From Rubrivivax gelatinosus (GTDB lineage Bacteria; Pseudomonadota; Gammaproteobacteria; Burkholderiales; Burkholderiaceae_C), in the NCBI RefSeq assembly GCF_004340905.1, contig NZ_SLXD01000001.1:496001-560000 (forward strand): DNA of 64,000 nucleotides, in the 5' to 3' direction. A program made the translations under genes and the position numbers. Below are positions 3,096 through 39,204 of this stretch, piece by piece (positions within the stretch are counted from its first letter, which is position 1; the number at the start of each line of letters is the position of its first letter). The notes under the pieces were generated by a model. The model was not told the DNA's origin and did no database searches. It saw nothing but the letters and a program-made list of their open reading frames with translations.

Positions 3096-4649
3096 TCAAC
3101 GGGTGTCGTGCACGCGCTGCAGCAGCGTGCCGAGCGCGGCGTGCTGGCCGCGCAGGAAGTCTTCGATCACGGCGTCGGCCTCGTCGCCGTCGGCGTGCAG
3201 CAGCAGCGTCGCGCCCTCGTTGCCGTGGCCGGCCAGGCGCGCCGCAGCGCCGGCGATCTTGGCCTCGACGTCGCCGCCGTAGAAACGCCCGTCGATCCAG
3301 TACAGCCGCCAGACCACCAGGCGGCGCTGGCGGCTGCCGGACAGCGAGACGCGGCCGTGGACCTCGGAGCGCCGCAGCACGAGGCGGCGGCCGTCGAGCT
3401 CGAGCGTGCGCGCCTCGTGGCGCGGCACGCTGAGATCGGGGTCGCGCATGCCGACGAGCAGGCGGTGGGTGCTGACGACCTTGAGCGTCTCGTCCTGGCC
3501 GCGGTAGTAGTCGACGAGCACGCCCACGCTGCCGGACGGGCCGGCGTAGGCGGCACGCGCGCGCGCCGAGGCGTCGTCGTAGTCGGGCGTCCAGTCGGCG
3601 ACACCGGCGCCGGCCGTGGACCAGGCGCCCAGCGTCGGCGGCAGTTCCAGGCGAGGCGCGGCGGCGGCGCCTTCGGCCCGTTCGAGCATCGCCAGCACGC
3701 CGTGCGGCAGCAGCGCGACGGCGGCGACGGCGAGCGCCGCCAGCACGACACGCCGCGCCGGCGGCGCCGAGGCCAGCGCCTCGCCGGCGGCCGGCGTGCG
3801 CGCCTCGGCGGCGGGCTCGGACCAGCGCGACCCGACGAAGAACATCGCCAGGATGATCACGCCGAAGAAGACCCAGCCGTAGAGGATGTGGTCGACGCCG
3901 ACCGCGAGCTTGTTGCCCGAGAGATGGGCCAGCATCACGATCATGTAGGCCCGCAGCCAGTTGGCGACGATGGGCACCGCGATCGACACCGCCATGAAGG
4001 CCGCACGCCGCCACCACGAGCGATAGCTCAGGTAGGCGAACAGCGAGCCGACCATGAACGACGCCATCAGGTAGCGGATGCCGCTGCACTCGTCGATGAC
4101 CGACCAGGTGCCGCTGGGCACGACGAAGTTCTGGCCTTCGCGGTAGACCGGCACGCCGGTCAGCTGCAGCGCGCCGACGACGAAGTCGGCGGTCCACTCC
4201 ATCATCCACGGCAGCGCGAACTCGCCGAAGGGCACGGCGAAGAACGAGAACATCAGCGGGAAGAAGATCGTGCGCGCCACCGGCCAGCCCAGCACCGCCG
4301 GCACCGCCAGCACCAGCGTGGCGACGAAGGCGAACTGGGTCGCGGCGTTGACCGCCACCAGCTCGGCCAGCAGCCACAGCGCGGCGATGCCCAGCATCGG
4401 CAGCAGCAGCCAGGGCTGCGGCCGCGGCGCCAGCGCCGCGAGTTCGGCGCGTCTGCGCCAGACCAGCCAGAGCACGATCGGCGGCACCAGCAGGCAGTGG
4501 GCGAAGGTCTCCGAGCGCCACCAGACCTCGGCCATGGCCAGCGCGGCGTCGCGGTAGAACCAGCCGACCACCAGCAGCAGCGGCACGAAGACGGCGAGCG
4601 CCGGCCGCCAGGGCGAGGCCTCGGGCAGGGTCGCGGGCACGGCGCTCAT
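3096..4649 (-). CDS. xrtA: Exosortase A with fused EpsI domain
   Basis: 517 aa polytopic membrane protein. Exosortases are transpeptidase-like enzymes that cleave PEP-CTERM tails at the inner membrane during export to the surface. The predicted catalytic residues are visible: Cys188 in DECSGIRYL, Arg233 in NWLRAYMI and His254 in GVDHILYGW. Residues about 20-275 hold around eight hydrophobic segments. After a linker and another hydrophobic segment (about 295-320) comes a soluble EpsI-type domain (about 325-517, with GVLVDYYRGQ and STHRLL), the usual architecture of exosortase A. It is preceded by glycosyltransferase 1 with an 11 bp gap. The substrate at 16671 lies in the same locus. Confidence 0.95.
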   Translation of the reverse strand: MSAVPATLPEASPWRPALAVFVPLLLVVGWFYRDAALAMAEVWWRSETFAHCLLVPPIVLWLVWRRRAELAALAPRPQPWLLLPMLGIAALWLLAELVAVNAATQFAFVATLVLAVPAVLGWPVARTIFFPLMFSFFAVPFGEFALPWMMEWTADFVVGALQLTGVPVYREGQNFVVPSGTWSVIDECSGIRYLMASFMVGSLFAYLSYRSWWRRAAFMAVSIAVPIVANWLRAYMIVMLAHLSGNKLAVGVDHILYGWVFFGVIILAMFFVGSRWSEPAAEARTPAAGEALASAPPARRVVLAALAVAAVALLPHGVLAMLERAEGAAAAPRLELPPTLGAWSTAGAGVADWTPDYDDASARARAAYAGPSGSVGVLVDYYRGQDETLKVVSTHRLLVGMRDPDLSVPRHEARTLELDGRRLVLRRSEVHGRVSLSGSRQRRLVVWRLYWIDGRFYGGDVEAKIAGAAARLAGHGNEGATLLLHADGDEADAVIEDFLRGQHAALGTLLQRVHDTR

Positions 4650-4660
4650 CGTCGGGGGCC

Positions 4661-5872
4661 TCAGGCGGCACGCGCGGCCAGCGCCGCGGCAAGGTGGTCG
4701 TCGATGCGCGCCAGGTTGGCGCTCCAGGAATAGTCGGCGAGCACGTGCTCCCGCCCCGCGGCGCCCAGCGCCGAGGCACGCGCCGGGTTGGCGAGCAGCG
4801 CGCCGACCTCGTGCACGAAGGCCGGCGCGTCGGCGGCGAGCACGATCTCGCGTCCGTCCACCGCGCCGACCGTCGAGCCGCAGCCGGTGGCGGCGACCAC
4901 CGGGCGCGCCATCGCCATCGCCTCCAGCACCTTGTTCTGGATGCCGCGCGCCAGGCGCAGCGGCGCGACGACGACGTCGGCGTGCTGCAGATACGGCCGC
5001 ACGTCGGCCACGGTGCCGGTGACGTTCACCGCCTCGCCGGCCAGCGCACGCACCGCCGGCGCCGGGTTGCGGCCGACGACGTGCAGCGTCAGCCCCGGGT
5101 GCGCGGCGCGCAGCGCCGGCAGCGCCTGCTGCACGAACCAGACGACGGCGTCGACGTTGGGCCAGTAGTCCATCGCGCCGGTGAAGGCGATGGCCGGCGC
5201 GCCGGCCGGGTACGGCGAAGCACGCGCCGGGTCGGGCGCGAAGTAGTCGGCGTCGACGCCGTTGGCCAGCGCGTCGACGGCGCCGGCGCATTCGGGGGCC
5301 AGCGAGCGGAACAGCTCGGTCTCGCGTTCGGTGACGAAGTACGAACGTTCGACACGCGCGGCGACCTCGCGCTCGTAGGCCAGCAGGCGCTCGCCTTCGC
5401 GCCGGTACAGCCAGGCCAGCGGGCCGCCGCGGTCGGTGGCGAACTGGGTCCACTTGGCCGAGTCGACGTCGACGAAGTCCACCAGCGTCGGCAGCCCCAG
5501 GCCTTCGGCGTACTGGGCCATCGACGAGCAGAAGACGACGACGGCGTCGATGCGGCGCTCGGCGACGGTGCGGCGCACCCAGCGCGCCATCGCCGCGTCC
5601 TGGTAGTAGCGCAGCGTCAGCGCGCGGCCGTCGAGCAGCGCGGCCAGGCTGGCGGCGCGCGCGCGCAGCGGGTGCAGGCGCGGCGCGAACAGGCTGGCGC
5701 AGTCGCGCGCCAGCGTCGGCACGTGGGCCTCGTCCTCGGGGTCGTCGACGAAGCTGCCGACGTGCACCTCGTGGCGCGCCAGCAGGTGGCGCAGCAGGTG
5801 GTACGAACGCACCTTGTCGCCCTTGTTGGGCGGGTACGGCAGGCGGTGGGCGAGGAAGAGCAGCCGCGCCAT
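4661..5872 (-). CDS. PEP-CTERM/XrtA-locus glycosyltransferase 1 (GT4 family, TIGR03087-like)
   Basis: 403 aa. It begins MARLLFLAHRLPYPPNKGDK with the KGDKVRSYHLL segment typical of the XrtA-associated transferase 1. The C-terminal domain carries the donor-site pattern PLRLARGIQNKVLEAMAMARP. It is predicted to transfer a sugar to the growing lipid-linked repeat unit in the cytoplasm. The ATG lies only 2 bp after the stop of the FemAB-like gene, so translation is probably coupled. Donor and acceptor sugars are unknown. Confidence 0.9.
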   Translation of the reverse strand: MARLLFLAHRLPYPPNKGDKVRSYHLLRHLLARHEVHVGSFVDDPEDEAHVPTLARDCASLFAPRLHPLRARAASLAALLDGRALTLRYYQDAAMARWVRRTVAERRIDAVVVFCSSMAQYAEGLGLPTLVDFVDVDSAKWTQFATDRGGPLAWLYRREGERLLAYEREVAARVERSYFVTERETELFRSLAPECAGAVDALANGVDADYFAPDPARASPYPAGAPAIAFTGAMDYWPNVDAVVWFVQQALPALRAAHPGLTLHVVGRNPAPAVRALAGEAVNVTGTVADVRPYLQHADVVVAPLRLARGIQNKVLEAMAMARPVVAATGCGSTVGAVDGREIVLAADAPAFVHEVGALLANPARASALGAAGREHVLADYSWSANLARIDDHLAAALAARAA

Positions 5873-22773: not shown

Positions 22774-22826
22774 CGGCTGCCGGCCAGAGCGCCTCCCCTG
22801 ACCCGTTCGCCAAAGGAACCGACCCC

Positions 22827-25607
22827 GTGTCTGCCATCGCCTTCAGACAACTCGCCGCCCGCAGCCTGCTGGCCGGTGCCGTCGCCCTGGCCGCCGGCTG
22901 CGGCGGCGAGTCGGAGCAGGAACTCACGACCGCGGCCAGGAGCTCGCTGGAACAGAACAAGCCCGACACGGCCATCGTGCAGCTGAAGGCGGCCCTGCAG
23001 AAGAACCCCGACTCGGGCGAGCTGCGCTTCCTGCTCGGCGACACCCTGATGAAGACCGGCGACGCCAAGGCCGCGGTCGTCGAACTCGGCAAGGCCGCCG
23101 ACCTCAAGTTCGACGACAAGCGCGTGCTGCCGGCGCTGGTGATGGCGATGATCGCCACCGGCCAGTCCAAGCAGGCCGTTCACCTGTACGGGCGCACGAC
23201 GCTCACCGAACCCAAGGCCGCCGCGGAGCTGAGCGTCGCGCTGGCGACGGCGCACGTCGTGCTCGACGAACGCGAGGCGGCCGAAGCCGCGGTGCAGCGC
23301 GCCCTGGCGCTGGACCCGAAGAACGAGGCCGCGCAGCTGCTGGACGCGCGTTTCATGGCCGGGCACGGCCTGACGGCCAAGGCGCTCGAACGCGTGCGTC
23401 CGCTGACGCAGCAAGGCGGCAAGCGGCGCGAGGCGCTGCAGCTGGCCGGCGAGATCCAGTGGAAGGGGCTCAACGATCTGGACACGGCGGCCAAGAGCTT
23501 CCGCGAGGTCATCGCGCTGGACCGGCGCTACGTCAACGCCTACACCGCGCTGCTCGCGATCGATCTGCGCCGCCAGGACCACGAGGGCCTGCGGCGCGAC
23601 CTGAAGGCGATGAAGGAAGCGCTGCCCAACCACCCGGAGACACGCTTCTACGACGCCCAGCTGGCGCTGATCGACGGCGACGTCAAACGCGCCCGCGAGA
23701 CGGTGCAGCAGCTGCTGAAACTGAACCCGAACAACGTCCGGGTGCTGCAGCTGGCCGGAACGATCGAGTCGGCAGCCGGCTCGACGCTGGTCGCCGAGAC
23801 GCACCTCACGAAGGCGCTGCAGCTGTCGCCGGAACTGTCGTTCGCACGCCGGCTGCTCGCCGAGGTGCTGATCCGGGCCGGCCAGCCCGCGCGTGCGGTG
23901 ACGACGCTCAAGCCGCTGCTGGACCAGGACGCGCCTTCGGCCGACGTGCTGGCGCTGGCCGCCGAAGCCCTTCTGATGACCGGCGACGCGGCGCAGGCGG
24001 AGCGGCTGTTCGTGCGGGCGTCACGCGCAGACCCCAGCAACCTGAAGCTGCAGGCCAACCTGGCGCTGACCGAGATCGCACGCGGCCGCACCGACGACGG
24101 CTTCGCCCAGCTCGAGTCCGTGGCGCAGCGCGACCGCTCTGCCTATGCCGATCTGGCGCTGATCGGCGCCCGGCTGCGGCGCCAGGACGGCAAGGGCGCC
24201 CTGGCGGCGATCGACCGGCTGCAGGCGAAGACGCCGGACAAGCCGCTCGCGGCGCAGCTGCGCGGCCAGGTCCTGATGCAGCAGGGTGACCGGGCGGGCG
24301 CGCGCAAGAGCTACGAACGCGCGCTGACGATCGATACGCAGTACCTGCCGGCTCTGGCGGGGCTGGCGACGATCGACATGGCCGAGAAGAAGCCCGAGGC
24401 GGCGATCAAGCGCTACGAGGACCTGATCCGGCAGGAGCCGAAGAACAGCCGCGCCATCACCGCGCTGGCCGAACTCAAGCGCGCCAACGGCGCTCCGGCC
24501 GAGGAGGTCGCCAAGGCGCTGCAGGAGGCGATCCGCCTCAACCCGACCGATCCGACCCCGCGTGCGCAGCTGGTGGAGCTGCACCTGTCCACGCGCAACA
24601 CGAATGCCGCGATGGCGACCGCCCAGGAGGCGGCCGCCACCTTGCCGGATGACCCTCAGACGCTGGTCGCCCTGGGGCGTGCGCAGATCTTCGCCCAGGA
24701 GGTCCAGCAGGCGATATCGACCTTCGGCAAGCTGGCGGCGTCGCGGCCGTCGGACCCCCGGTTCCAGTTGCTGCTGGCCGACGCCTACGACCTCGGCAAG
24801 GACAGCGCCGGGGCCGAGCGGGCGCTGGTGAAGGCACTGGAACTCGACCCGGACCTGCTGGCAGCGCAGAGCCGCCTGGTGCAGGGCCGCGTCGCCCAGA
24901 AGCGTTACGAGGCGGCGCTCCAGGTCGCGAGAACCGCCCAGAAGCAGCGCCCGAAGGAAGCCGCCGGCTACCTTCTGGAAAGCAACGTGCACGTCGCGAC
25001 GAAGGCCTGGCCTCAGGCCATCGGCGCGATGCGCGCGGCGCTCGATCGCCAGCCGAGCGCCGACAACGCCATGAAGCTGCACGGCATCCTGCTGCTGGCC
25101 GAGCAAGCCCAGGAGGCCGAGCGCTTCGCGGCCGACTGGATGCGCACGCACCCTCGCGACCCGGTGTTCCTGGCCCACCTGGGCAACGTGTCCCTCACGC
25201 GCGGCCAGTGGGCGCGCGCCGAGACCCATTACCGCAGTCTGGCCGCGCTGCACCCCGACGACGCCACCGCCCAGAACAACATCGCCTGGCTGCTGCTGCA
25301 GCAGAACAAGCCCGGCGCGCTCGCGGTCGCACAGCGCGCCGTCGAGCTCGCGCCCGGGCGCCCCGACTCGATGGACACGCTGGCCAGCGCCCTGGCCGCC
25401 GAAGGCCAGATGGCCAAGGCCATCGAATGGCAGCGCAAGGCGGCCGAAACGCCGAACGCCTCGCCCAGCTACCGGCTGAACCTCGCCCGGCTGCTGATCA
25501 AGGCCGGTGACCGCGCGGCCGCACGCGGCGAACTGGACAAGCTCGCCAAGCTGGGCGACAAGTTCCCCTCCCAGAAGGAAGTCGGCGACCTGATGAAGAC
25601 GCTGTAG
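22827..25607 (+). CDS. prsT: PEP-CTERM system TPR-repeat lipoprotein PrsT, copy 1
   Basis: 926 aa from a GTG start with AAAGGAA nine bases upstream. The signal peptide ends in a lipobox (ALAAGC, Cys at about residue 25), so it is probably an outer-membrane lipoprotein facing the periplasm. The remainder is a near-continuous solenoid of about 20 TPR units (for example ALQKNPDSGELRFLLGDTLM and ALDPKNEAAQLLDARFMAG). PrsT is a marker of exosortase A loci and is thought to scaffold export or sorting complexes. The close paralogue at 30900 shares the whole architecture. Confidence 0.93.
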   Translation: MSAIAFRQLAARSLLAGAVALAAGCGGESEQELTTAARSSLEQNKPDTAIVQLKAALQKNPDSGELRFLLGDTLMKTGDAKAAVVELGKAADLKFDDKRVLPALVMAMIATGQSKQAVHLYGRTTLTEPKAAAELSVALATAHVVLDEREAAEAAVQRALALDPKNEAAQLLDARFMAGHGLTAKALERVRPLTQQGGKRREALQLAGEIQWKGLNDLDTAAKSFREVIALDRRYVNAYTALLAIDLRRQDHEGLRRDLKAMKEALPNHPETRFYDAQLALIDGDVKRARETVQQLLKLNPNNVRVLQLAGTIESAAGSTLVAETHLTKALQLSPELSFARRLLAEVLIRAGQPARAVTTLKPLLDQDAPSADVLALAAEALLMTGDAAQAERLFVRASRADPSNLKLQANLALTEIARGRTDDGFAQLESVAQRDRSAYADLALIGARLRRQDGKGALAAIDRLQAKTPDKPLAAQLRGQVLMQQGDRAGARKSYERALTIDTQYLPALAGLATIDMAEKKPEAAIKRYEDLIRQEPKNSRAITALAELKRANGAPAEEVAKALQEAIRLNPTDPTPRAQLVELHLSTRNTNAAMATAQEAAATLPDDPQTLVALGRAQIFAQEVQQAISTFGKLAASRPSDPRFQLLLADAYDLGKDSAGAERALVKALELDPDLLAAQSRLVQGRVAQKRYEAALQVARTAQKQRPKEAAGYLLESNVHVATKAWPQAIGAMRAALDRQPSADNAMKLHGILLLAEQAQEAERFAADWMRTHPRDPVFLAHLGNVSLTRGQWARAETHYRSLAALHPDDATAQNNIAWLLLQQNKPGALAVAQRAVELAPGRPDSMDTLASALAAEGQMAKAIEWQRKAAETPNASPSYRLNLARLLIKAGDRAAARGELDKLAKLGDKFPSQKEVGDLMKTL

Positions 25608-27356: not shown

Positions 27357-29455
27357 ATGGAACGCCCCGAGGCCGGACTCGCCCTGCTCGGTTTCGCGCT
27401 CGCGGCGCTGGTGCATGCCGGCTTCGTGGCGCTGCTCGTGCGTGCCCAGGAGTCGGCGCAGGAGCGCAGCCCGCACCGCGGCCTGTTCCTGGCGGCGCTG
27501 CTGGCCACGGTCGCCTGGGGCCTGGCGTCGGCCTGGCAGACCGGCGCGCCCACGGTCGCCGGCGGCTATCTGGCGGCGCTGGCCGACCTGCTGCGCCTGG
27601 GCCTGTGGCTGGCCTTCATGCTGGCCCTGCTCGAACCGGGGCTCGGCTCCGAGCCCGACCCGGCGCTGCGGCCGCTGCGCACGGCCGCCGGCGTTGCGCT
27701 GATCGTGGCCTTGTGCGGCGTCGTCGGTTTCGGTCTGGCGCGCGAGGCCGGCTCGATGCTGCGCCTGGTCTTCGCCGGCTGGCTGCTGATCGCCATCGTC
27801 GGCCTGGTGCTCGTCGAGCAGCTGTTTCGCAACCTGCCCGAGGACTCGCGCTGGAACGCCAAGCCGGTGTGCCTGGGGCTGGGCCTGCTGTTCGCGTTCG
27901 ACCTCTACGTCTACGCCGAAGGCGTGCTCTTCGGCCGCCCGGACCCGGACGCGCTGGCCGTGCGCGGCTTCGTCGTGGCGCTGGCCATGCCCTGGCTGCT
28001 GGTGGCGGCACGCCGGCGGCGCGACTGGATCCGCCGGCTGCAGGTCTCGCGTTCCGCCGCCTTCTATTCGGCGACGCTGATCCTCGTCGGCGCCTACCTG
28101 CTGGTGATGGCCGGCGTCGGCTACTGGGTGCGCGACTTCGGCGGCGACTGGGGGCGCGGGCTGCAGATCGTGCTCGCCGCGGCCGGCGTGCTCGGCCTGG
28201 CGCTGCTGGTGCTGTCGGGCGCGGCGCGCTCGCGGCTGCGCGTCTTCGTCGGCAAGCACTTCTTCAGCTACCGCTACGACTACCGCGAGGAATGGCTGCG
28301 CTTCACGGCGATGCTGTCCTCGCGCGGTTCGCCGCAGGAGATCGGCGGCCTGGTCGTGCGCGGGCTGGCGAACATGGTCGAGTCGCCTTCGGGCAGCCTG
28401 TGGCTGCGCGGCGGCGCCGACGGCGCGTATCGCCAGTCGGCGCGCTGGAACACCGCCGAGGTCGACGCCGCCGAGGCCGCCGACTCGGCGCTCGCCGCCT
28501 TCCTCGCCGAACCCGGCTGGGTGGTCGACCTCGACGAGTTCCGCGACGCCCCGCGCCGCTACGGCAGTCTGGCGCTGCCGGCCTGGCTGCAGCCCGGCGG
28601 CGACACCTGGCTCGTGGTGCCGCTGCCGGTGGCCGGCGAACTGCTGGGCTTCGTCACGCTGGGCCGGCCGCGCACGCCGCAGGAACTGAACTGGGAGGTG
28701 CGCGACCTGCTCAAGACCGCCGCGCGCCAGGCCGCCGGCATCCTGGCGCAGATGCAGGCCACCGAGGCGCTGCTGGAAGCCCGCAAGTTCGAGGCCTTCA
28801 ACCGCATGTCGGCCTTCGTCGTGCACGACTTGAAGAACATCGTCACCCAGCTCTCGCTGATGATGAAGAATGCCCAGCGTCTGCACGCCAACCCGGAGTT
28901 CCAGCAGGACATGCTGATGACGGTGGAAAGCTCGCTCGAGAAGATGCGCCGCCTGATGCTGCAGCTGCGCGAGGGCGCGACGCCGCCCGGCGGCTCGCGC
29001 GGCGTCGAGCTGGCGGCCGTCGTCGGGCGCATCGCCTCGGGAGCCCGCAGCGCCGGCCGCCATGTCGAGACCGACTGCGCTGCGGGCCTGGCCACGCGTG
29101 GCCACGAAGACCGCCTCGAGCGCGTGCTCGGCCACCTGGTGCAGAACGCACTGGACGCGACACCGGCCGAGGGCCGCGTCTGGGTGCGTTGCTCGCGCCA
29201 CGGCGGCCAGGTCAAGCTCGAGATCGGCGACACCGGCTGCGGCATGAGCGAGGACTTCATCCGCAACAAGCTCTTCCGCCCGTTCAGCAGCACCAAGACG
29301 AGCGGCATGGGCATCGGCTCCTACGAGAGCTTCCAGTACCTGCGCGAACTCGGCGGCAGCGTCGACGTCGACAGCCGCGTCGGCGAAGGCACCGTCATCA
29401 CGCTGCTGATGCCGCTGTTCGAGCCCCACGCCTCTTCCGACCTCCGGATGTCCGC

Positions 29456-29459
<4 letters not shown>
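27357..29459 (+). CDS. prsK: PEP-CTERM system histidine kinase PrsK
   Basis: 700 aa membrane sensor kinase. The first about 300 residues contain eight or so hydrophobic helices, the typical PrsK sensor. A GAF-like domain follows (about 310-455). The HisKA region has the phospho-acceptor His490 in FVVHDLKNIV. The HATPase domain shows QNALDATP, GDTGCGM and KTSGMGIGSYE. It phosphorylates PrsR, whose start overlaps the prsK stop by 4 bp (ATGA). The pair is thought to switch PEP-CTERM gene expression through sigma-54. The signal sensed is unknown. Confidence 0.94.
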
Positions 29460-30899: not shown

Positions 30900-33668
30900 A
30901 TGAACACCTTTGCCCGCACCGCCGCCGCGATCGCCGTCGCCACGCTGCTCGCCGCCTGCGGCGGCCCGTCCGAGGCGGAACTGCTCGCCTCGGCCCAGGA
31001 CTCGCTCGCGCGCCAGGACACCAAGACGGCGACGATCTCGCTGAAGTCCGCGCTGCAGAAGAACCCCGAACTCGCCGAGGCCCGGCTGCTGCTGGGCACC
31101 ACGCTGCTGGCCAGCGGCGACGCCGCCGGCGCCAGCGTCGAACTGCGCAAGGCCTCGCAACTGAAGCTGCCCGAGGCGCGTGTCTTGCCGCCGCTGGCCC
31201 GCGCGCTGCTCGCCAGCGGCGAGGACCGCCGCATCGTGCAGACCTGGGCCGCCACGCGGCTGGACACGCCCGAGGCCGACGCCGACCTGTCGACCACGCT
31301 GGCCCAGGCCTACCTGAGGCTGGACCAGCCCACCCAGGCCCGCGAGGCGGTCGACGCCGCGCTGCGGGCCCTGCCGGCCTACGCGCCGGCCAAGCTGCTG
31401 AAGGCGCGCCTGCTGGCCGCCGACCAGGACGTGGACGGCGCGATCGTCCTCGTCGACGAGATGACCGCCGCCGACACGCGCCAGGCCGACGCCTGGCTGC
31501 TCAAGGGCCAGCTCGAACAGTACGGCCGGCGCGACGCCCAGGCCGCGATCGCCGCCTACCGCCGCGCCGTCGAGGCCGATCCGCGCCGCATGGCGGCGCA
31601 TCAGGCCCTGGTCGGCCTGCTGGTGGCCGGTGGCGATATCGCCGCCGCCGAGGCCCACGTGCAGCAGCTCGTCAAGACCCAGCCCGACATCGCGGGCACG
31701 CAGCTGCTGCAGGCCCAGATCGCCTACCTGCGTGCCGACTACGAAGGCGTGCGCCGCCTGGTGCAGCCGCTGGTGCAGGCAACGCCGAACAACCCCGTCG
31801 TGCTGCAGCTCGCCGGCGCGGCGGAGTTCCAGCTGCGTGCGCTGCCGCAGGCCGAGACACTGCTGGCCAAGGCCGTGCAGCTGCAGCCGGGCATGCCGCT
31901 GGCGACGGGGCTGCTGGTGCAGCTGTACCTGCGCACCGGGCAGGCGGACAAGGCGCTGGCGCTGCTGCAGCCCGAACTCGACGGCGGCAAACCGCGGGCC
32001 GAGACGCTGCTGCTGGCCGGCCAGGCCCACCTGCAGAACGGCGAAGCGCGCCAGGCCGAAGCCGCGTTCGCCCAGGCGGCCAGGCTCGCGCCGCAGGATC
32101 CGCGCGCCCGCACCGCGCTGGCGCTGGGCAAGATCGGCCGCGGCGAAGCCGCCGCCGGGCTCGGCGAACTCGAATCGCTGGCCGCCAGCGACGCGGGCAT
32201 CGGTGCCGACATGGCGCTCATCGCCTCGCAGCTGCGCCGCGGCGAGCGTGCCAAGGCGCTGAAGGCGATCGACGCGCTGGATGCCAAACGCCCGCAGGAC
32301 CCGACGCCCCAGCTGATGCGCGGCCGTGTGCTGCTGGCCAGCGGCGAGCGCGCCGCTGCCCGCAGCGCGTTCGAGAACGCACTGGCACGCGACGCCGCCT
32401 ACTTCCCCGCCGTCGCCGGCCTGGCCGCGATCGACCTGGCCGAGGGCAACACCGCCGCGGCGCGCCAGCGCTTCGACGCCGCCCTCGCGCGCGACCCGAA
32501 GAACTGGCGCGCGATGCTCGCACTGGCCGAATGGCTGGAGCGCACCGGCGCCGGCGCCGACGCGGTGAGCGCGCAGTACGCCGCGGCCGTGAAGGCGGCC
32601 CCCGGCGAGGTGCTGCCGCGGCTGCGGCTGATCGACGAGCGCCTCGCGCGGCGCGACACCAGCGGCGCCCTGGCCGCGGCCCGCGAGGCCGCAGCGGCCC
32701 TGCCGTCGAACCGCGAGCTGCTGGGCGCGCTGGGGCGCGCCGAACTCGCCAACCGCGACTACCAGCAGGCGTTGACCCGCTTCCAGAAGCTCTCCCAGCT
32801 GCAGCCGCGTTCGCCGGCCGGGCTGCTGGGCCAGAGCGACGCCTACATCGGACTGAAGGACATGGCGGCGGCCGAACGGGCGCTCAAGTCGGCGCTGGAG
32901 CTGGTGCCGCGCCTGCTGCCCGCGCAGCAGGCGCTGGTGGCGCTGTACACCGGCGAGGGCCGCTATGCCGAGGCGGTGGGGCTGGCACGCGAGATCCAGA
33001 AGCAGCGCCCGGCCGAGGCCGCCGGTTACTTCGCCGAAGCGGCGGTCGAGCAGGCGCGCCGCAAGCCCGAGGCCGCCCTGGCGATCTACCGCACGGCGCA
33101 GCAGAAGGCGCCGGGCGCCGAGACGGCGATCCGGCTGCACGCCGCGCTGCACGCCGCCGGCCAGGCCGAGGAGGCCGGACGTCTCGCCGCCGGCTGGCAG
33201 AAACAACATCCGCAGGACCTGGCCTTCCGCTTCCACCTGGGCGACCTCGCGCTGACGCGCCAGGACTGGGCCGGTGCCGAGGCGCGTTACCGCGAGGTGC
33301 TGGCGCGCCAGCCGGACAACCCGCTGGCGCTGAACAACGTCGCCTGGCTGATGCTCAGGCAAGGCAAGCCGGGCGCCCTGGCGCTGGCCGAGAAGGCCAA
33401 CACCGCCGCGCCCGGGCAGCCCGCGCTGCGCGACACGCTGGCGCTGGCGGCCGCGGCCGAGGGCCAGCTGCCGCGGGCCCTGGCGCTGCAGAAGGACACG
33501 GTGCAGCGCGCACCGGAAGCCCCGGCGCTGCGGCTGACGCTGGCCAAGCTGCTGCTGCAGTCGGGCGACAAGGCGGCGGCCCGCGTCGAGCTGGACAAGC
33601 TGAACAAGCTGGGCAGCGGTTTCGACGGCCAGGCCGAGGTCGCCGAACTGCTGAAGAAGGCAAGCTGA
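30900..33668 (+). CDS. prsT: PEP-CTERM system TPR-repeat lipoprotein PrsT, copy 2
   Basis: 922 aa. The signal peptide ends at lipobox LLAACG (Cys20), then comes a TPR solenoid of about 20 repeats. It aligns with the first PrsT from the start of the mature protein (SLKSALQKNPELAEARLLLG against QLKAALQKNPDSGELRFLLG) to the shared end ARxELDKLxKLG. The two paralogues bracket the sugar transferase, prsK and prsR, suggesting duplication within the locus followed by divergence. Copy 2 is more Ala-rich. It lies 70 bp downstream of prsR and may be cotranscribed. Distinct clients or redundancy cannot be told apart from sequence. Confidence 0.93.
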   Translation: MNTFARTAAAIAVATLLAACGGPSEAELLASAQDSLARQDTKTATISLKSALQKNPELAEARLLLGTTLLASGDAAGASVELRKASQLKLPEARVLPPLARALLASGEDRRIVQTWAATRLDTPEADADLSTTLAQAYLRLDQPTQAREAVDAALRALPAYAPAKLLKARLLAADQDVDGAIVLVDEMTAADTRQADAWLLKGQLEQYGRRDAQAAIAAYRRAVEADPRRMAAHQALVGLLVAGGDIAAAEAHVQQLVKTQPDIAGTQLLQAQIAYLRADYEGVRRLVQPLVQATPNNPVVLQLAGAAEFQLRALPQAETLLAKAVQLQPGMPLATGLLVQLYLRTGQADKALALLQPELDGGKPRAETLLLAGQAHLQNGEARQAEAAFAQAARLAPQDPRARTALALGKIGRGEAAAGLGELESLAASDAGIGADMALIASQLRRGERAKALKAIDALDAKRPQDPTPQLMRGRVLLASGERAAARSAFENALARDAAYFPAVAGLAAIDLAEGNTAAARQRFDAALARDPKNWRAMLALAEWLERTGAGADAVSAQYAAAVKAAPGEVLPRLRLIDERLARRDTSGALAAAREAAAALPSNRELLGALGRAELANRDYQQALTRFQKLSQLQPRSPAGLLGQSDAYIGLKDMAAAERALKSALELVPRLLPAQQALVALYTGEGRYAEAVGLAREIQKQRPAEAAGYFAEAAVEQARRKPEAALAIYRTAQQKAPGAETAIRLHAALHAAGQAEEAGRLAAGWQKQHPQDLAFRFHLGDLALTRQDWAGAEARYREVLARQPDNPLALNNVAWLMLRQGKPGALALAEKANTAAPGQPALRDTLALAAAAEGQLPRALALQKDTVQRAPEAPALRLTLAKLLLQSGDKAAARVELDKLNKLGSGFDGQAEVAELLKKAS

Positions 33669-33738: not shown

Positions 33739-34842
33739 TCAGCCTTCCTGGCGCTGCGCGGCTTCCTGCTCGCGCAGCTCGGCGCCCGTGACACGGCGCC
33801 AGGCCTTGCGCGCGAGGTGGCGCACGAGCAGCGGCAGCGGCATGCGCAGCCAGTGCGAGCGCAGATACAGCGCCAGCCTCGCCGCCGGCGCGCCCGGCGT
33901 CTCGCAGCTCGGGTGCTGCGGCTGCAGCACGCGTTCGTAACACGCGTCCAGCAGCGCCGGCAGCGGCCAGGGCGGGGCCGAGCGCGCCAGTTCGCGCTGC
34001 ACCTCGGGCGGGACCGGCGTGCCCAGCACACGCGCGCTGTGGCGCAGCGCGTAATGCAGCGGCCGGCGCAGCCCCAGCCGGCCGGCGCGTTCGACCGTGC
34101 GGTCCCAGTAACCGGGCTCGGCGCCGCCGTGGCGAACCAGTGCGTCCAGGTCGAACAGGTCGCGCAGGCCGTTGGCGAACTCGCCTTCGTGGAACAGGTG
34201 CGTGGCGCTGTGCAGCAGCAGGTCCGGCGGCGCGAAGGTCGACAGGCCCGGCCAGTCGGCCAGCGGACGAAGGTCCTCGAACAGCGCCGGCGTCGCCAGC
34301 GCGGTGCGCGAGGTCAGCGGCAGCAGCGTGTGGTGCACGTCGAGCACGGTGCCGCGGCGGCGGTGGCGCATCGGCGGCAGCTCGTGCATCCAGCGCCGGT
34401 AGTACTGCTCGTCGTAGGGCGACAGCGGCTCGACGACCCAGCCGTGGCTCAGCAGCCGGCTCTCGACTTCGGCCAGGGTCTCGCGTGGCACCAGCAGGTC
34501 GAGGTCGCCGTACAGCCGCGAGCGCGCCAGCGGCAGGTCCAGCGCCAGATAGGCGCCGCCCTTGAGCACGACGGCCTGCGCCGCCCCGTCCAGCGCCTGG
34601 GCGACACGGTCGAGCTCCCAGCGCATGCGCTGGCGCTGGGCGTCGGCGATGCGGCGAGCCGCTCCCAGGTGCACCCGGGCCACGGCGGGCGCCTCGAGGC
34701 CGGCATCGGCCAGCGCGTCGTGCAGACGGGCGAGCAGGTTCGCGCGCCGCGCCTGGCGCAGCAGCAGGTCCCAGCCGGGCAGGGGCAGCGAGGCCGCGCG
34801 TGCCGGATCGAGCAGCACCTCGACGAGCAGGCTGCGATTCAC
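33739..34842 (-). CDS. Nucleotidyltransferase family protein (PF14907-like) of the HprK/PqqD cassette
   Basis: 367 aa from a GTG start overlapping the stop of the kinase gene by 4 bp. The nucleotidyltransferase signature is LKGGAYLALDLP followed by RLYGDLDLLVPRE, with the metal-binding Asp-x-Asp in GDLDLLV. Then comes LDVHHTLLP and an extended helical C-terminus. Relatives accompany HPr-kinase-like enzymes in some lasso-peptide clusters, where they further decorate a phosphorylated serine. Here the gene is third in a cassette after PqqD-like and kinase genes. The substrate is unknown. Confidence 0.82.
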   Translation of the reverse strand: MNRSLLVEVLLDPARAASLPLPGWDLLLRQARRANLLARLHDALADAGLEAPAVARVHLGAARRIADAQRQRMRWELDRVAQALDGAAQAVVLKGGAYLALDLPLARSRLYGDLDLLVPRETLAEVESRLLSHGWVVEPLSPYDEQYYRRWMHELPPMRHRRRGTVLDVHHTLLPLTSRTALATPALFEDLRPLADWPGLSTFAPPDLLLHSATHLFHEGEFANGLRDLFDLDALVRHGGAEPGYWDRTVERAGRLGLRRPLHYALRHSARVLGTPVPPEVQRELARSAPPWPLPALLDACYERVLQPQHPSCETPGAPAARLALYLRSHWLRMPLPLLVRHLARKAWRRVTGAELREQEAAQRQEG

Positions 34843-35753
34843 GGCAGATCCCCCGCGGCGAGCGCGTCGAAAGCCGGCGCCAGCTCGTCGAGCGCGCCAT
34901 AGCTGAAGCGCAGGCAGGCGGTGTGGCCGACCATCGTCGTCAGCGCGTCGAAGCCCTGCAGCCCGAGCACGTGGTAGTTGAACGACTGCTCGGCCAGCAG
35001 CAGCGCCGCCTCGGCGCGGTCGATGCGCTCGAAGGCGGCGCGCGCACCGGCCTGCCAGCGTGGCAGCACGACCCAGGCCGGCCGTGCCGGCTCGGCACGC
35101 CGGCTCACGGCTTGGGCCGGCGGGCGCATCAGCGCGATCGTGCCCTTGAGCGTGTCGGGCACCGGCGGCGAGATCACCGCCTCGGGCACGAAACCGGCCA
35201 CGAGGCCGATCGACGCGTTCTTCAGGTTCACCGCGCGTGCCATGCCATGCACCAGGCCCGTCGCCGGGTCCAGCAGCGCGAGCTCGTCGGACAGCAGGCG
35301 CCAGCCACGGTGCGCCAGCACCGCCGTCAGCGTGCTCTTGCCCGAGCCCGGCGGCGCCGGCAGCACGAGCGCGCGGCCGTCGCGCTCCAGAACCGCCGCG
35401 TGGCAGACCAGGAACTGGTGCGCGTGCGCGGCGACACACCAGTTCAGGCCCCATTCGAGCATCGTCGGCGCCTGGTTCGCCGGCAGGCTGACGAAAGCCG
35501 GCAGGCCGTCGAAGACGAAACGGGCGCGCCGCCGCCCGGGCAGCCCGAAACGCGACGCCCGGATCTCGAGGTGGTAGTCGACGAAACCGTCCTGCGGGGC
35601 GAGCGGGAAGTCGGCGTACAGCAGCGCCACCGCGTCGGCGACGGCCGGCAGGCCCGAGCGCACGCAGGCCACGAAAGGCAGGATGTCCAGGCGCAGCCCG
35701 TCGGCACGGAGGCGGCGCAGCAGCGACGCCCGGTCAAGGTCGGATACCTTCAA
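34839..35753 (-). CDS. HprK-related kinase A
   Basis: 304 aa, apparently from a TTG start that overlaps the stop of the PqqD-like gene (TTGA). The P-loop APPGSGKST is at about residues 133-141, followed by LLSDELALLD, the HPr-kinase-like metal/catalytic region. It lacks the N-terminal domain and HPr-recognition elements of true HPr kinase/phosphorylase. It matches the HprK-rel-A group that is found next to small PqqD-like proteins. The likely reaction is ATP-dependent Ser/Thr phosphorylation of a peptide or protein presented by the PqqD-like protein. Confidence 0.85.
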   Translation of the reverse strand: MKVSDLDRASLLRRLRADGLRLDILPFVACVRSGLPAVADAVALLYADFPLAPQDGFVDYHLEIRASRFGLPGRRRARFVFDGLPAFVSLPANQAPTMLEWGLNWCVAAHAHQFLVCHAAVLERDGRALVLPAPPGSGKSTLTAVLAHRGWRLLSDELALLDPATGLVHGMARAVNLKNASIGLVAGFVPEAVISPPVPDTLKGTIALMRPPAQAVSRRAEPARPAWVVLPRWQAGARAAFERIDRAEAALLLAEQSFNYHVLGLQGFDALTTMVGHTACLRFSYGALDELAPAFDALAAGDLP

Positions 35754-36040
35754 GGCGCAGGCAGCAGCGTGGCGAGGCCCCGGGTCGACAGACGCAGGAG
35801 TTCGACCTGGACGTCGCTCGCGAGCGAGCCCGGAGCGGCAGCCCCGAGATCCCGGGCCAGTTCATCGACCAGATCCTCGAGCACGCCCGCCGGGTGCTCG
35901 GCCAGGCGCAGCAGGAGCTCCTGCGCCAGGGCGCTCAGCAGGAAGGTGTCGCCGCTGCGATCGTCGTAGGCGATGGCGCTGCCGTCGTCGCCGAAGGTCC
36001 GGATGTGCACCGCCGGCTGCGGCACCAGGGCCCAGCGCAC
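35750..36040 (-). CDS. PqqD-family peptide chaperone of the HprK-related kinase system
   Basis: 96 aa from the GTG at 36040 (VRWALVPQPAVHIRTFGDDG). The winged-helix PqqD fold is suggested by AIAYDDRSGDTFLLSALAQE followed by LLLRLAEHPAGVLEDLVDEL. PqqD-like proteins bind the leader of a precursor peptide and hand it to the modifying enzyme. It is sandwiched between the Tat-like protein gene (7 bp upstream) and the kinase (overlapping), which supports a dedicated modification system. A longer upstream frame exists but has no family resemblance. Confidence 0.8.
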   Translation of the reverse strand: MRWALVPQPAVHIRTFGDDGSAIAYDDRSGDTFLLSALAQELLLRLAEHPAGVLEDLVDELARDLGAAAPGSLASDVQVELLRLSTRGLATLLPAP

Positions 36041-36047
36041 GACGGCG

Positions 36048-36728
36048 TCACTTCGGTCGCGCCAGGTTGTTCTGGACCACGTAGTCCGTGATCTCCGAGC
36101 GACCCCAGGCGGACTTGCCGGACTTCGGATCGAAGCTGCCGGTGGCCATGTCCCGGACATGCGAGGACGGGGCGCAATTCGTGGGCGAGTAGCTGCTATT
36201 GGACAGCAGCTTCTGGTTCAGCAGGGCGACGAGGACCGCCCGCGTGAAGTCGCTGGAGCCGCTGCAGCGGCCGTTGAGCGCGGCGTCCAGAAGCTCGGTC
36301 TTGGCCAGCCCCGACGGCACCGCGTCGAGACCGCACTGCTCGAGCGTCAGCTTCTTCTTGGCGTCGGTGTAGTTGAAGTTGCCCCACTTGTCGTAGTGCT
36401 TCTTCAGGTTCGAGCACAGGACGTTCCAGGGCTTGCCGTAGCCGGCGTAGTCCTGGTTGCCGCACCAGTGCGTATGCGACCAGCCGTCGATCTTGGTGCC
36501 CGCCGACGAGCCGGTGCCCGCGCTGGCCGAGGCCATCGCCGAGCCCCAGGCCGAGGTCGAGATGCAGTTGTAGGTGGCGTGAACCGGCCGCCCGACCAGC
36601 AGCAGCGAGGCCGGCGCAGCCCCGCCGGCGATCTTCAGCAGGCGCCGGCGGCGTGCAGCGAACGCGGCCGACGCGGCGGCGTCGGGGCGCGGTTCGGGGG
36701 ATTCGACGGGGTGTTGGCTGTCGTTCAT
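36048..36728 (-). CDS. Putative Tat-exported Cys/Ser-rich protein, candidate substrate of the HprK/PqqD cassette
   Basis: 226 aa of unknown function. The N-terminus has a twin-arginine-like motif (RRRRLLK, residues 26-32), a hydrophobic stretch and PVHA just before residue 52, so it is probably exported folded. The mature part is Ser-rich near its start (residues 57-76) and has six cysteines (55, 89, 105, 132, 155, 185). Other features are HTHWCGNQDYAGYGKPW and a basic C-terminus. No domain is recognised. It is the first gene of the four-gene minus-strand cassette, so it is the best candidate for the protein acted on by the kinase and nucleotidyltransferase. Confidence 0.7.
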   Translation of the reverse strand: MNDSQHPVESPEPRPDAAASAAFAARRRRLLKIAGGAAPASLLLVGRPVHATYNCISTSAWGSAMASASAGTGSSAGTKIDGWSHTHWCGNQDYAGYGKPWNVLCSNLKKHYDKWGNFNYTDAKKKLTLEQCGLDAVPSGLAKTELLDAALNGRCSGSSDFTRAVLVALLNQKLLSNSSYSPTNCAPSSHVRDMATGSFDPKSGKSAWGRSEITDYVVQNNLARPK

Positions 36729-36957
36729 CGCGGCTCCCTCGGAATGGGCGCAGGGCGTGGCCCTGGAGCGGGTCCGGTCAGCCGGAGTGTAGACCGCCAC
36801 CCCCGGCGGACACACCTTGCAACGGGCCCTTGAATCGGTGGTCGAGGCCAGCGTCGGGCGGCCATCCGTGCGGAGTTCCTCGGCTGGCGCCCGGCACTCA
36901 ATTGCGACAAGCTGTTGCAGGGCCTCAATCCGGCGCCGCGCGCGCCGTAACCGTGTC

Positions 36958-38271
36958 ATGAGCACCCGCCTGCGCAAGAACCTCCACGCCGGACTGCGTT
37001 CGGCGATGGGCATGCTGCCCCAGACCACGCGGCACGCGATCTTCCGGCGCATGGTCGACTGCGACCCGGCGCCGGACGACCGGCTGCAGGTGCGCATCGT
37101 CGACGCGCGGCAGGACCTGGAGGCCTGTTTCGGGCTGCTGCACGACGCCTACGTTGCCAGCGGCTTCATGAAGCCCCACCCCTCGGGCCTGCGCGTGACG
37201 CCCTACCACGCGCTGCCGACGACGACGACGATCGCCGCGTTCTGGGACGGCGAGGTCGTCGGCACGATGTCGATGATCCGCGAAGGCGTCTTCGGCTTTC
37301 CGCTGCAGTCGGTGTTCGACCTGAGCGCGGTGCGCGCCCAGCCCGGCCGCGTGGCCGAGATCTCGGCGCTGGCGGTGCACCGGAAGTTCCGCGCCAGCGG
37401 CGGCAAGATCCTGTTCCCGCTGATGAAGTTCATGTACGAGTACTGCTCTCAGTACTTCGACACCCGGCATCTGGTCATCGCGGTCAATCCGAACAAGATC
37501 GAGCTCTACGAGTCGCTGCTGTTCTTCCGCCGCCTGCAGGCCGCCACGGTGGAGAACTACGACTTCGCCAACGGCGCGCCGGCCGTGGGCGCGACGCTGG
37601 ACCTGCACCAGGCGCCCGAGACCTTCCGCGCCGCCTACACCGGCCGCGAGGGCCGCAAGGACCTGCACCACTACTTCGTCGAGCAGCGCCTGCCCAACCT
37701 GAAGCTGCCCGAGCGCCGCTACTTCACCACCAACGACCCGGTGATGACGCCGGCGCTGCTGGACTACTTCTTCACCCAGCGCACCGACTGTTTCGCCCAG
37801 CTCGACCCGCGCCGCCTGGGGCTGCTGCACAGCATCTACGACAGCCCCGAATACGCCGCGGTGCTGCCGCCGCTGCCCTACGGCCACCAGGCCGGCAGCG
37901 CGGCGCTGCGCCGCCATCCGCGCTACTCGATCAAATGCCCGGCGGTGCTGACGCTGGAGGACCGCCCGCAGGCGCTGGAAGTCGTCGAGCTGTCGCAGCA
38001 GGGCTTCCAGGCCCATGGTGCCAACGACCTGGCGATGGGCGCCCGCGGCTGGATGAAGGTGCAGCTCGGCGAGGGCGTCGAGTCCACCGTGCTGGCCGAG
38101 GTGGTGCGCCGCGTGCCGACGGCCGTCGGCCACTTCCACGGCTTTCGCGTCGAGGCGCCGGACCCGGCCTGGCTGCGCTGCGTGCGCCTGCTGGAGACCG
38201 GCACCACACACGCCGACCTGGCCGCCGAACGCCCCGCCGGCAGCCTGCCCTCCGAACGCCGGGCGGCCTGA
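36958..38271 (+). CDS. FeeM-like N-acyl amino acid synthase fused to a PilZ domain
   Basis: 437 aa. Residues about 40-250 form a GNAT/FeeM-type acyltransferase domain (CFGLLHDAYVASGFMKPHPS, then VAEISALAVHRKFRASGGKI, typical of PEP-CTERM/exosortase-associated acyltransferases and FeeM). The C-terminus, about 315-415, is a PilZ-like domain starting RRHPRYSIK with ELSQQG in place of the usual (D/N)xSxxG. FeeM joins acyl groups from acyl-ACP to amino acids. The PilZ part suggests control by cyclic di-GMP. It is divergent from the Tat-like gene across 229 bp and is followed by a protease gene. Confidence 0.8.
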   Translation: MSTRLRKNLHAGLRSAMGMLPQTTRHAIFRRMVDCDPAPDDRLQVRIVDARQDLEACFGLLHDAYVASGFMKPHPSGLRVTPYHALPTTTTIAAFWDGEVVGTMSMIREGVFGFPLQSVFDLSAVRAQPGRVAEISALAVHRKFRASGGKILFPLMKFMYEYCSQYFDTRHLVIAVNPNKIELYESLLFFRRLQAATVENYDFANGAPAVGATLDLHQAPETFRAAYTGREGRKDLHHYFVEQRLPNLKLPERRYFTTNDPVMTPALLDYFFTQRTDCFAQLDPRRLGLLHSIYDSPEYAAVLPPLPYGHQAGSAALRRHPRYSIKCPAVLTLEDRPQALEVVELSQQGFQAHGANDLAMGARGWMKVQLGEGVESTVLAEVVRRVPTAVGHFHGFRVEAPDPAWLRCVRLLETGTTHADLAAERPAGSLPSERRAA

Positions 38272-38302
38272 ACGCGGGGGCGGCCCCGGCCCGGCCGGGT
38301 GC

Positions 38303-38308
38303 TATGCT
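38303..38308 (+). promoter_or_regulatory. Possible -10 element (TATGCT) for the S1C protease gene
   Basis: TATGCT, in the sequence GTGCTATGCTGGCC, matches the sigma-70 -10 pattern at most positions and lies 89 bp before the chosen TTG start. No clear -35 is visible. If used, the hairpin at 38353-38385 lies in the 5' untranslated region. Confidence 0.3.
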
Positions 38309-38352
38309 GGCCGCACCGTGCGTGCCCCGCTCCCGATCCGGAATCCAGGCCC

Positions 38353-38385
38353 GTCCGTCCGCGTGATGACACGCGGCCGACGGAC
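38353..38385 (+). other. Strong hairpin just upstream of the S1C protease start
   Basis: Arms GTCCGTC (38353-38359) plus CGCGTG (38360-38365) pair with CACGCG (38370-38375) and GACGGAC (38379-38385) around an ATGA loop, leaving a three-base GCC bulge. It ends six bases before the predicted TTG start and could either terminate the upstream transcript or restrict ribosome access. No T-run follows. Confidence 0.6.
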
Positions 38386-38391
38386 AGACGT

Positions 38392-39204
38392 TTGAAACCC
38401 GATACCCGTCGCCGCGCGTGGCTCGCCGCCACGCTGCTGGCGCTGGCACTGCCCGCGCGCGCCGGGCTGCCGGAGGTCATCGCCGTGGCCAAGCCCGGCG
38501 TCGTCGCCGTCGGCACCTTCAACCCGCTGGACAGCCCGCGCTTCGCGTTCCGCGGAACCGGTTTCGCGGTGCACGACGGCAGCTACGTGATCACCAACCA
38601 GCACGTGCTGCCGTCGCCCGGCGAAGCCGAGCAGCTGTCGCGGCTGTCGGTGCTGGTGGCGCGCGGCGGCCGCGTGTCCGAGGCGCGGTCGGCGCGCATT
38701 GCCGGCACCGATCGCGCCCACGACCTGGTGCTGCTGAAGATCGAGGGCCCGTCGCTGCCGCCGCTGGCGCTGGGCGACGCCGACGCCGCGCGCGAAGGCA
38801 TGTCGATCGCGCTCGTCGGTTTCCCGATCGCCGGCGCGCTCGGTTACTCGCCGGTCACGCACCGCGGCATCGTCTCGGCGATCACCGCGATCGCGCTGCC
38901 GGCCTCGACCTCGCGCCAGCTCGACCCGCGCGCGCTGCAGAAGCTGCGCGAGGGCCCGTTCGACATCTTCCAGCTCGACGCGACGGCCTATCCGGGCAAC
39001 AGCGGCGGGCCGGTGCTCGACGCCGAGACCGGCGAGGTGGTCGCCGTCGTCAACATGGTGCTGGTACGCGGCACGCGCGAGAACGCGATCCAGTTCCCCT
39101 CGGGCATCAGCTACGCGATCCCCGTGCGCCACGTGCACGAGCTGCTGCAGCAGGCCACCACGCCGGCGGCTGAGCCGACGGCCTCGGCTCAGCCGCCGCG
39201 CTGA
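38392..39204 (+). CDS. Secreted trypsin-like serine protease (S1C/HtrA-like, no PDZ domain)
   Basis: 270 aa from a probable TTG start. A signal peptide (LKPDTRRRAWLAATLLALAL then PARA) precedes a chymotrypsin-fold domain. The catalytic His is in VITNQHVLPS, the Asp in RAHDLVLLKIEG and the Ser in YPGNSGGPV. It is shorter than DegP because it lacks PDZ domains, so it is probably a soluble periplasmic protease. Its place after the FeeM-PilZ gene, within the XrtA neighbourhood, hints at processing of surface proteins. It ends directly against the convergent epimerase (0 bp gap). Confidence 0.85.
   Translation: MKPDTRRRAWLAATLLALALPARAGLPEVIAVAKPGVVAVGTFNPLDSPRFAFRGTGFAVHDGSYVITNQHVLPSPGEAEQLSRLSVLVARGGRVSEARSARIAGTDRAHDLVLLKIEGPSLPPLALGDADAAREGMSIALVGFPIAGALGYSPVTHRGIVSAITAIALPASTSRQLDPRALQKLREGPFDIFQLDATAYPGNSGGPVLDAETGEVVAVVNMVLVRGTRENAIQFPSGISYAIPVRHVHELLQQATTPAAEPTASAQPPR

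Follow-up and report, generated by a model that had tools for sequence, protein, structure and literature searches.

A candidate leader-guided modification cassette for exported proteins in an exosortase A locus of Rubrivivax gelatinosus

The window analysed here is a stretch of 64,000 nucleotides (nt) from Rubrivivax gelatinosus (contig NZ_SLXD01000001.1, positions 496,001 to 560,000), and the system in question is a block of four genes on its minus strand (33739-36728 in window numbering, which is used throughout), transcribed in the order P0001, PqqD-like protein, HprK-related kinase and nucleotidyltransferase. We propose that this block probably serves to modify exported proteins under the guidance of their leaders. 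P0001 belongs to a set of proposed substrates, called partners below, which combine a twin-arginine-like leader with a short serine motif that is probably a tagging site used before export.

Results

The analysis confirms the four genes and their close coupling. P0001 (36048..36728, minus strand) is a class A partner of 226 amino acids (aa), consisting of a twin-arginine-like leader, an SxxxS motif and a GYW/LLN-type domain. A gap of 4 nt separates it from the gene for the PqqD-like protein, the HPr-rel-A system peptide chaperone and our candidate leader binder (35750..36043, minus strand), which is 97 aa long with the GTG start at 36043; further in-frame starts exist upstream. Next come the gene for HprK-related kinase A, the proposed serine kinase (P0003; 34839..35753, minus strand; 304 aa, TTG start), and that for the nucleotidyltransferase, the proposed second-step enzyme (33739..34842, minus strand; 367 aa, GTG start). 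As read from the DNA, the two junctions on either side of the kinase gene's boundaries, PqqD-like/kinase and kinase/nucleotidyltransferase, are the start/stop overlaps TTGA and GTGA, which fits translational coupling of the last three genes. The original prediction for this DNA, made by a model from the sequence alone, had described the cassette in the same way; it had given the PqqD-like protein 96 aa, and its family assignment stands but its length becomes 97 aa if translation starts at the GTG at 36043.

The kinase and the PqqD-like protein are members of the HPr-rel-A system, scoring 348.9 bits with TIGR04352 (cut-off 200) and 47.7 bits with TIGR04353 (cut-off 35), respectively, and the nucleotidyltransferase belongs to PF14907 (165.1 bits, cut-off 31.2). 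An HprK-related kinase and a PF14907-like nucleotidyltransferase, as originally predicted, are thereby confirmed. In its P-loop region the kinase profile matched HPr kinase (E 7.8e-4), and Foldseek searches with the kinase model (predicted local distance difference test score, pLDDT, 96.3) retrieved phosphoenolpyruvate (PEP) carboxykinase (E 3.1e-7) and HPr kinase (3tqf, E 3.0e-4), two folds that are kin. H118, K139, D156 and E157 did not vary among the 56 aligned kinases (alignment A4, P0003 and 55 of the 60 listed). After the P-loop, every one of the 168 kinases trimmed for the tree has an Asp-Glu pair, recognised by pattern in 147 and by eye in 21. P0003 had no Pfam match to the HPr kinase family PF07475, for which E 0.01 was reached by 17 of the 56 relatives (best 1.1e-4). 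At one locus (L154:1444-3564), kinase and nucleotidyltransferase are fused in a single open reading frame (ORF) of 706 aa.

The nucleotidyltransferase retains the acidic catalytic residues of its fold (D113, D115 and D168), which together with K94 and G95 were invariant in 36/36 proteins (alignment A6, with 35 of the 61 listed); no solved structural relative was found. PF14907 is presumably also the type of PsmN, an enzyme of lasso-peptide clusters. The PqqD-like protein is homologous to PqqD or the B1 leader-binding proteins. Its profile, built from 49 relatives (alignment A5, with 48 of the 65 listed), best matched the lasso B1 proteins TbiB1 (5v1u, E 0.0018) and TfuB1 (6jx3, E 0.006), with PqqD itself behind them (3g2b, E 0.71), and PF05402 was found in 7 of the 49 at E 0.01.

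The kinase is widespread in the Burkholderiales-type order that was sampled, where 50 of 300 genomes exceed the TIGR04352 cut-off, and it also occurs in other parts of the phylum (61 of 398 genomes in the phylum sample). We collected 177 loci with 169 distinct kinases, and a small leader-bearing partner was found nearby at 161 of these 169. The original prediction had held that frequent cassettes lacking the Tat-like (twin-arginine translocation) gene would speak against it, and this count is on its side. Two of the eight loci without a partner have an evident cause, a flank that is too short (L029, whose genome G201 has a match) and a truncated partner (L106); in the flanks available for the other six (L148, L150, L151, L157, L177 and L178) no partner was found, and L148 was excluded from the partner set. 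All 80 loci from named genomes, found with the kinase alignment, carry a match to the class A model near the kinase (weak in L061 and L113), which lies within 600 nt upstream of the kinase in 74 of them. By tally, none of the 50 kinase genomes in the order sample is without a partner, the weakest being that of G067. We rejected the absence of a partner from the loci of family f44 (L015, L023, L029 and L030), where the gene sits downstream of the nucleotidyltransferase.

P0001 might have passed for a rare gene, since a search with its sequence alone reached 3 of 300 genomes, and the two foreign matches adjoin a kinase. That a single-sequence search finds few relatives is explained by the strong divergence of the partner protein: a search with the P0001-family alignment reached 40 genomes, and reading the slot by position revealed partners of other classes. 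The idea of a rare gene was therefore dropped. One partner belongs to a record titled as a Planctomycetaceae metagenome-assembled genome (L061); this partner lacks the GYW domain but shows the leader and a GGSGGTSGNMS stretch, and its kinase falls among proteobacterial class A kinases, so that this locus reflects either transfer or mis-binning.

The PqqD-like gene and the nucleotidyltransferase gene were each present in 162 of the 177 loci and in 78 of the 80 named loci, both named misses of the nucleotidyltransferase lying at contig ends; a stricter rule, which gave 107/177 nucleotidyltransferase loci, was too strict, as start codons are ill-placed in GC-rich ORFs. At the class B loci L137, L145-L147, L155, L156, L159 and L160, no nucleotidyltransferase was seen in about 1.5 kb downstream. 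Because several class B loci show none, the second step seems to be optional. The predicted four-gene cassette is thus a conserved block, but one that some class B loci carry without its fourth gene.

On sequence grounds, the partner slot is filled by at least four classes and not by one family, which departs from the original prediction of a single Tat-like protein. The distinct partners comprised 107 of class A, 3 class-A-like (in gammaproteobacterial-type genomes), 30 of class B, 2 of class B', 6 of class C, 9 of class D and 4 others. They are mostly 130-290 aa long, and between partners of different classes no similarity was detected beyond the leader. Characteristic C-terminal ends are SCWTSF-like in class B, TCFASLQMPRG-like in class D and SATAYTSL-like in class C. 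Candidate known families were looked for among the members scanned with Pfam and NCBIfam, and none was convincing; P0001 itself had no match in either at E 0.1, and Foldseek found no solved structure like its model (best E 2.6). The smallest partner noted, at L158 (L158:2685-2933), has only 82 aa, namely the leader and a short tail ending in ASCLDSFNGL, and resembles a near-minimal substrate.

Partner class tracks the kinase tree, with 11 changes compared with 50.4 when labels were shuffled (FastTree, near copies kept; L154 omitted because the P-loop pattern missed its kinase). Classes C, D and B' changed once each, class B three times and class A seven times.

The leader of P0001 contains RRRRLLK, and partners show a twin arginine followed by a hydrophobic stretch, as in Tat signals. 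RR occurs in 168 of 169 leaders, the leader position itself being defined on RR, RK or KR. A leader model built from class A only recovered 12 of 54 non-A partners at E <0.001 and one other among 10,715 ORFs, this sole extra being an overlapping frame at a partner locus; the leader thus appears partly shared across classes. An alignment of 26 class A proteins left R27, R28, S59, S63 and N171 as the only invariant residues, and in 71 proteins (alignment A3, P0001 and 70 of the 80 named loci) these five were at least 90% conserved, as were C55, W101 and L170. Among the six cysteines of P0001 (55, 89, 105, 132, 155 and 185), only C55 is nearly invariant in relatives. The original description of a Tat-like, Cys- and Ser-rich protein therefore holds for the twin-arginine-like leader and the six cysteines of P0001, but what relatives conserve is a short Ser motif and not the Cys and Ser richness. 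The GYWKNH-type domain of class A also occurs within ORFs of 1046-2888 aa that have neither leader nor motif; L181-L184, long ORFs that match the class A model but share only this domain, were rejected as class A partners.

Motifs were counted in 132 dereplicated partners (90 class A, 42 non-A) out of 169. In class A the motif has the form S-[GA]-x-x-S right after the leader, and 88 of 90 proteins have S-x3-S in the 35 residues that follow the leader (500 shuffles: mean 41.4, maximum 55); of the two misses, that of L022 comes from a misplaced leader and that of L082 is real. In the other classes the motif sits at the opposite end. The pattern [STA][ACGS][WFYLIM]xS, picked on inspection of the sequences, was present in the last 40 residues of 35 of 42 non-A partners (shuffles: mean 3.4, maximum 9), and the narrower [ST]C[WFYLI]xS in 28 of 42 (mean 0.2, maximum 3). 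The reciprocal ends were not enriched (SxxxS in the last 40 residues of 15/90 class A partners against 13.2, and in the first 35 of 9/42 non-A partners against 9.7). The distance of the C-terminal motif from the C-terminus was 1-16 residues in 30 class B partners, 5-6 in 9 class D partners and 10-13 in 5 of the 6 class C partners. In P0001, the motif S59-A-W-G-S63, the proposed modification site, is encoded at 36540..36554 (minus strand; computed from the residue number). In the structure model the two blocks of residues 51-70 have pLDDT values of 71 and 61, and from residue 81 onward values are mostly 80-95; a motif in such a low-confidence stretch before the folded part is compatible with an exposed tail.

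The block is surrounded in the window by a full XrtA/PEP-CTERM exopolysaccharide (EPS) locus, so the exosortase setting of the original prediction was correct. The locus includes exosortase A (XrtA; 3096..5453, minus strand; TIGR03109 344.5 bits, cut-off 208), FemAB, a deacetylase, an ATPase, an outer-membrane protein, a tyrosine autokinase, a chain-length protein, an EpsB-type transferase, the XrtA/PEP-CTERM histidine kinase PrsK (27357..29459, plus strand; TIGR02916 792.7 bits) and two PrsT-like proteins. One of the latter, the XrtA/PEP-CTERM tetratricopeptide repeat (TPR) protein PrsT, is encoded at 30900..33668 (plus strand; TIGR02917 673.9 bits) and the second at 21648-25607 (plus strand), both over the TIGR02917 cut-off. 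TatC is present. Within the order sample, 47 of 50 kinase genomes contain XrtA over cut-off, against 26 of the 250 others (Fisher p 2.7e-32, uncorrected for relatedness), and an exosortase match of any kind was found in 50/50 kinase genomes (only weak in G135 and G137) and in 120/300 genomes overall. Of the 50 long named loci, 32 have an XrtA/EPS-locus gene no farther than 10 kb from the kinase. By this co-occurrence with exosortase A, the block qualifies as an accessory module of the XrtA/PEP-CTERM system.

A sigma-54 core (TGGYV-N6-TTGCW) was found upstream of 44 of 158 partner genes, compared with 0 on the reverse strand and a mean of 0.7 (maximum 4) in shuffles; the sites of L135 and L144 are far upstream and doubtful. 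Haft and colleagues describe a sigma-54 motif preceding PEP-CTERM genes that are linked to PrsK/PrsR/PrsT (PMC1569441). Because sigma-54 cores precede partner genes, many of these cassettes probably belong to the PEP-CTERM sigma-54 regulon.

An HtrA-like protease gene recurs near the cassette (in the window at 38299..39204, plus strand; TIGR02037 E 3.6e-20, below its cut-off). Of the 50 long named loci, 20 have a relative no more than 10 kb from the kinase. In 13 of these 20 the relative directly precedes the partner gene, sharing the strand of the kinase and lying about 2.5-2.9 kb ahead of it; the protease could be a partner processor. The gene at 36957-38271 (plus strand) points away from the cassette and has weak N-acyl/GNAT-type likeness (PRK14852 only, far below cut-off); its relatives are near 3 of the 50 long named loci.

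Discussion

Given the gene block, its leader and its motif, we suggest the following course of events. The partner would be made with its twin-arginine-like leader, which the lasso-B1-like PqqD protein would bind so as to present the partner to the kinase. The kinase would then phosphorylate one serine of the short motif (in the window S63, or else S59), and the nucleotidyltransferase, where present, would add a nucleotide or a sugar to the phosphate. The folded partner would leave, probably by Tat, for the cell surface or the matrix made by the XrtA/exopolysaccharide locus. That the modified serine is S63 rather than S59 is a weaker guess, favoured by the presence of S63 in the consensus of all classes. 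The chemistry is modelled on lasso-peptide enzymes: as published, PadeK phosphorylates the C-terminal Ser of a linear lasso precursor and PsmN adds hexoses to phospho-Ser in lasso clusters (PMC9266682). A bolder proposal, slightly less likely than not, is that one leader and one short serine motif make several unrelated scaffolds substrates for phosphorylation and then nucleotidyl- or glycosyl-phosphate transfer. This would amount to the leader logic of ribosomally synthesized and post-translationally modified peptides (RiPPs) acting on whole exported matrix proteins of exosortase A bacteria.

Several observations weigh against these proposals. The chemistry is carried over by analogy from lasso-peptide enzymes, and the kinase has H-K-D-E (H118 K139 D156 E157) where lasso kinases are reported to need H-K-D-D (PMC9266682), so that the last residue differs. 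At the class B locus L180, about 3 kb downstream holds a TPR protein and no nucleotidyltransferase. The Tat model TIGR01409 did not match P0001 and none of the proteins scanned passed it, the figure for L125 being 13.9 of 16.7 bits. Six partners (L138, L080, L169, L171, L026 and L092) were added by hand, and the leader model took its seeds from the very loci that it scored. As to the motif, L082 is a class A partner without SxxxS, and seven non-A partners (L061, L095, L113, L119, L162, L164 and L166) lack the C-terminal pattern, three of which (L061, L162 and L166) have SxxxS near the N-terminus. When residue pairs were enumerated blind in class A, GYW-type pairs came ahead of SxxxS, which took eighth place by z; the pattern for the C-terminal end was picked with the sequences in view; and what is seen at the two ends may be two separate motifs. 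Finally, no sigma-54 site was found upstream of the window's own cassette.

The same data bear on other explanations. The phospho-Ser may be an attachment point, to which the nucleotidyltransferase links a sugar-phosphate serving as primer or anchor for exopolysaccharide, making the partner a polysaccharide-linked matrix protein. The frequency of XrtA among kinase genomes, the EPS-locus genes near the kinase and the hexose transfer reported for PsmN (PMC9266682) agree with this; nevertheless, at least L180 has no downstream nucleotidyltransferase, and we regard such a linkage as unlikely. It is also rather improbable that the system is a RiPP pathway proper, in which the modified, motif-bearing tail is cleaved off, for example by the HtrA-like protease, to give a small phosphorylated or glycosylated peptide, the rest being a carrier. 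The position of the motif near an end, the 82-aa partner of L158 ending in ASCLDSFNGL, the resemblance of the PqqD-like proteins to lasso B1 and the HtrA-like genes in 20 of 50 long named loci would all fit, but class A retains a large domain with near-invariant W101, L170 and N171, mostly modelled at pLDDT 80-95 after residue 80, and the four-gene block holds no dedicated RiPP protease that we could find.

Since the motif could be structural and the enzyme activities are predicted, the kinase and nucleotidyltransferase might act on some other substrate, such as an HPr-like protein or a glycan, with the partner merely co-transcribed or recognised as cargo. We doubt this, given that partner class follows the kinase phylogeny and that the serine motif is found again in partners for which no similarity was detected outside the leader. 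A purely structural or export role for SxxxS, as a post-leader linker or disulfide neighbourhood, would suit the class A motif, which follows the leader directly and has a near-invariant Cys next to it, and the class B motif, which contains Cys; it is hard to reconcile with motifs at opposite ends in different classes and with the lack of Cys inside the motifs of classes C and B', and seems quite improbable. We keep to leader-guided modification of exported partners as our preferred explanation. The long-named and unexplained HPr-rel-A system gains from it a substrate family, a predicted modification site and swapped scaffolds, so that mass spectrometry can test its function directly. If the proposal is true, leader-guided enzyme recruitment is not confined to small natural-product peptides but reaches exported proteins as well, and a protein-modification branch is added to the exosortase A/exopolysaccharide regulon.

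Among known systems, HPr kinase/phosphorylase (HprK) shares with the window kinase the fold, the P-loop region and the H and D positions; the window kinase differs in an extra conserved N-terminal part and in having no Pfam match. SynChlorMet ScmC and HprK-related kinase B show weak P-loop similarity to it (E 5.2e-5 and 0.0041), but it scores far below both curated cut-offs. Lasso-peptide tailoring (PadeK/ThcoK and PsmK/PsmN) is alike in its HprK-like kinase, its B1-like leader binder and a Ser near an end of the substrate; it differs in that window-type substrates are mostly 130-290-aa exported proteins and not lasso precursors, and in the exosortase setting of the window system. A lasso-peptide cluster can be dismissed here, because the B2 leader peptidase family PF13471 is absent from the whole genome and PF00733 (Asn-synthase, lasso-cyclase-type) is over cut-off only at 470-495 kb of the contig, before the window begins at 496 kb; the original prediction was right that lasso cyclase and leader peptidase are missing.

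In the literature covered, which leaves out most subscription journals, we found no paper on 'HprK-related kinase', HPr-rel-A, TIGR04352 or TIGR04353 and none pairing an exosortase with HprK or with PqqD; an exosortase and a nucleotidyltransferase were paired in one paper, a cyanobacterial genome comparison. The closest precedent is the NCBIfam HPr-rel-A system (TIGR04352/TIGR04353), whose curated cut-offs the window kinase and PqqD-like protein exceed, so that the original statement that the arrangement has no described function was too strong. The NCBIfam models name two proteins and give no function, and among the members scanned no NCBIfam family covers the partners, the classes they form or the serine motif. 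The naming of the system is thus already known, and the partner classes and the serine motif are new here.

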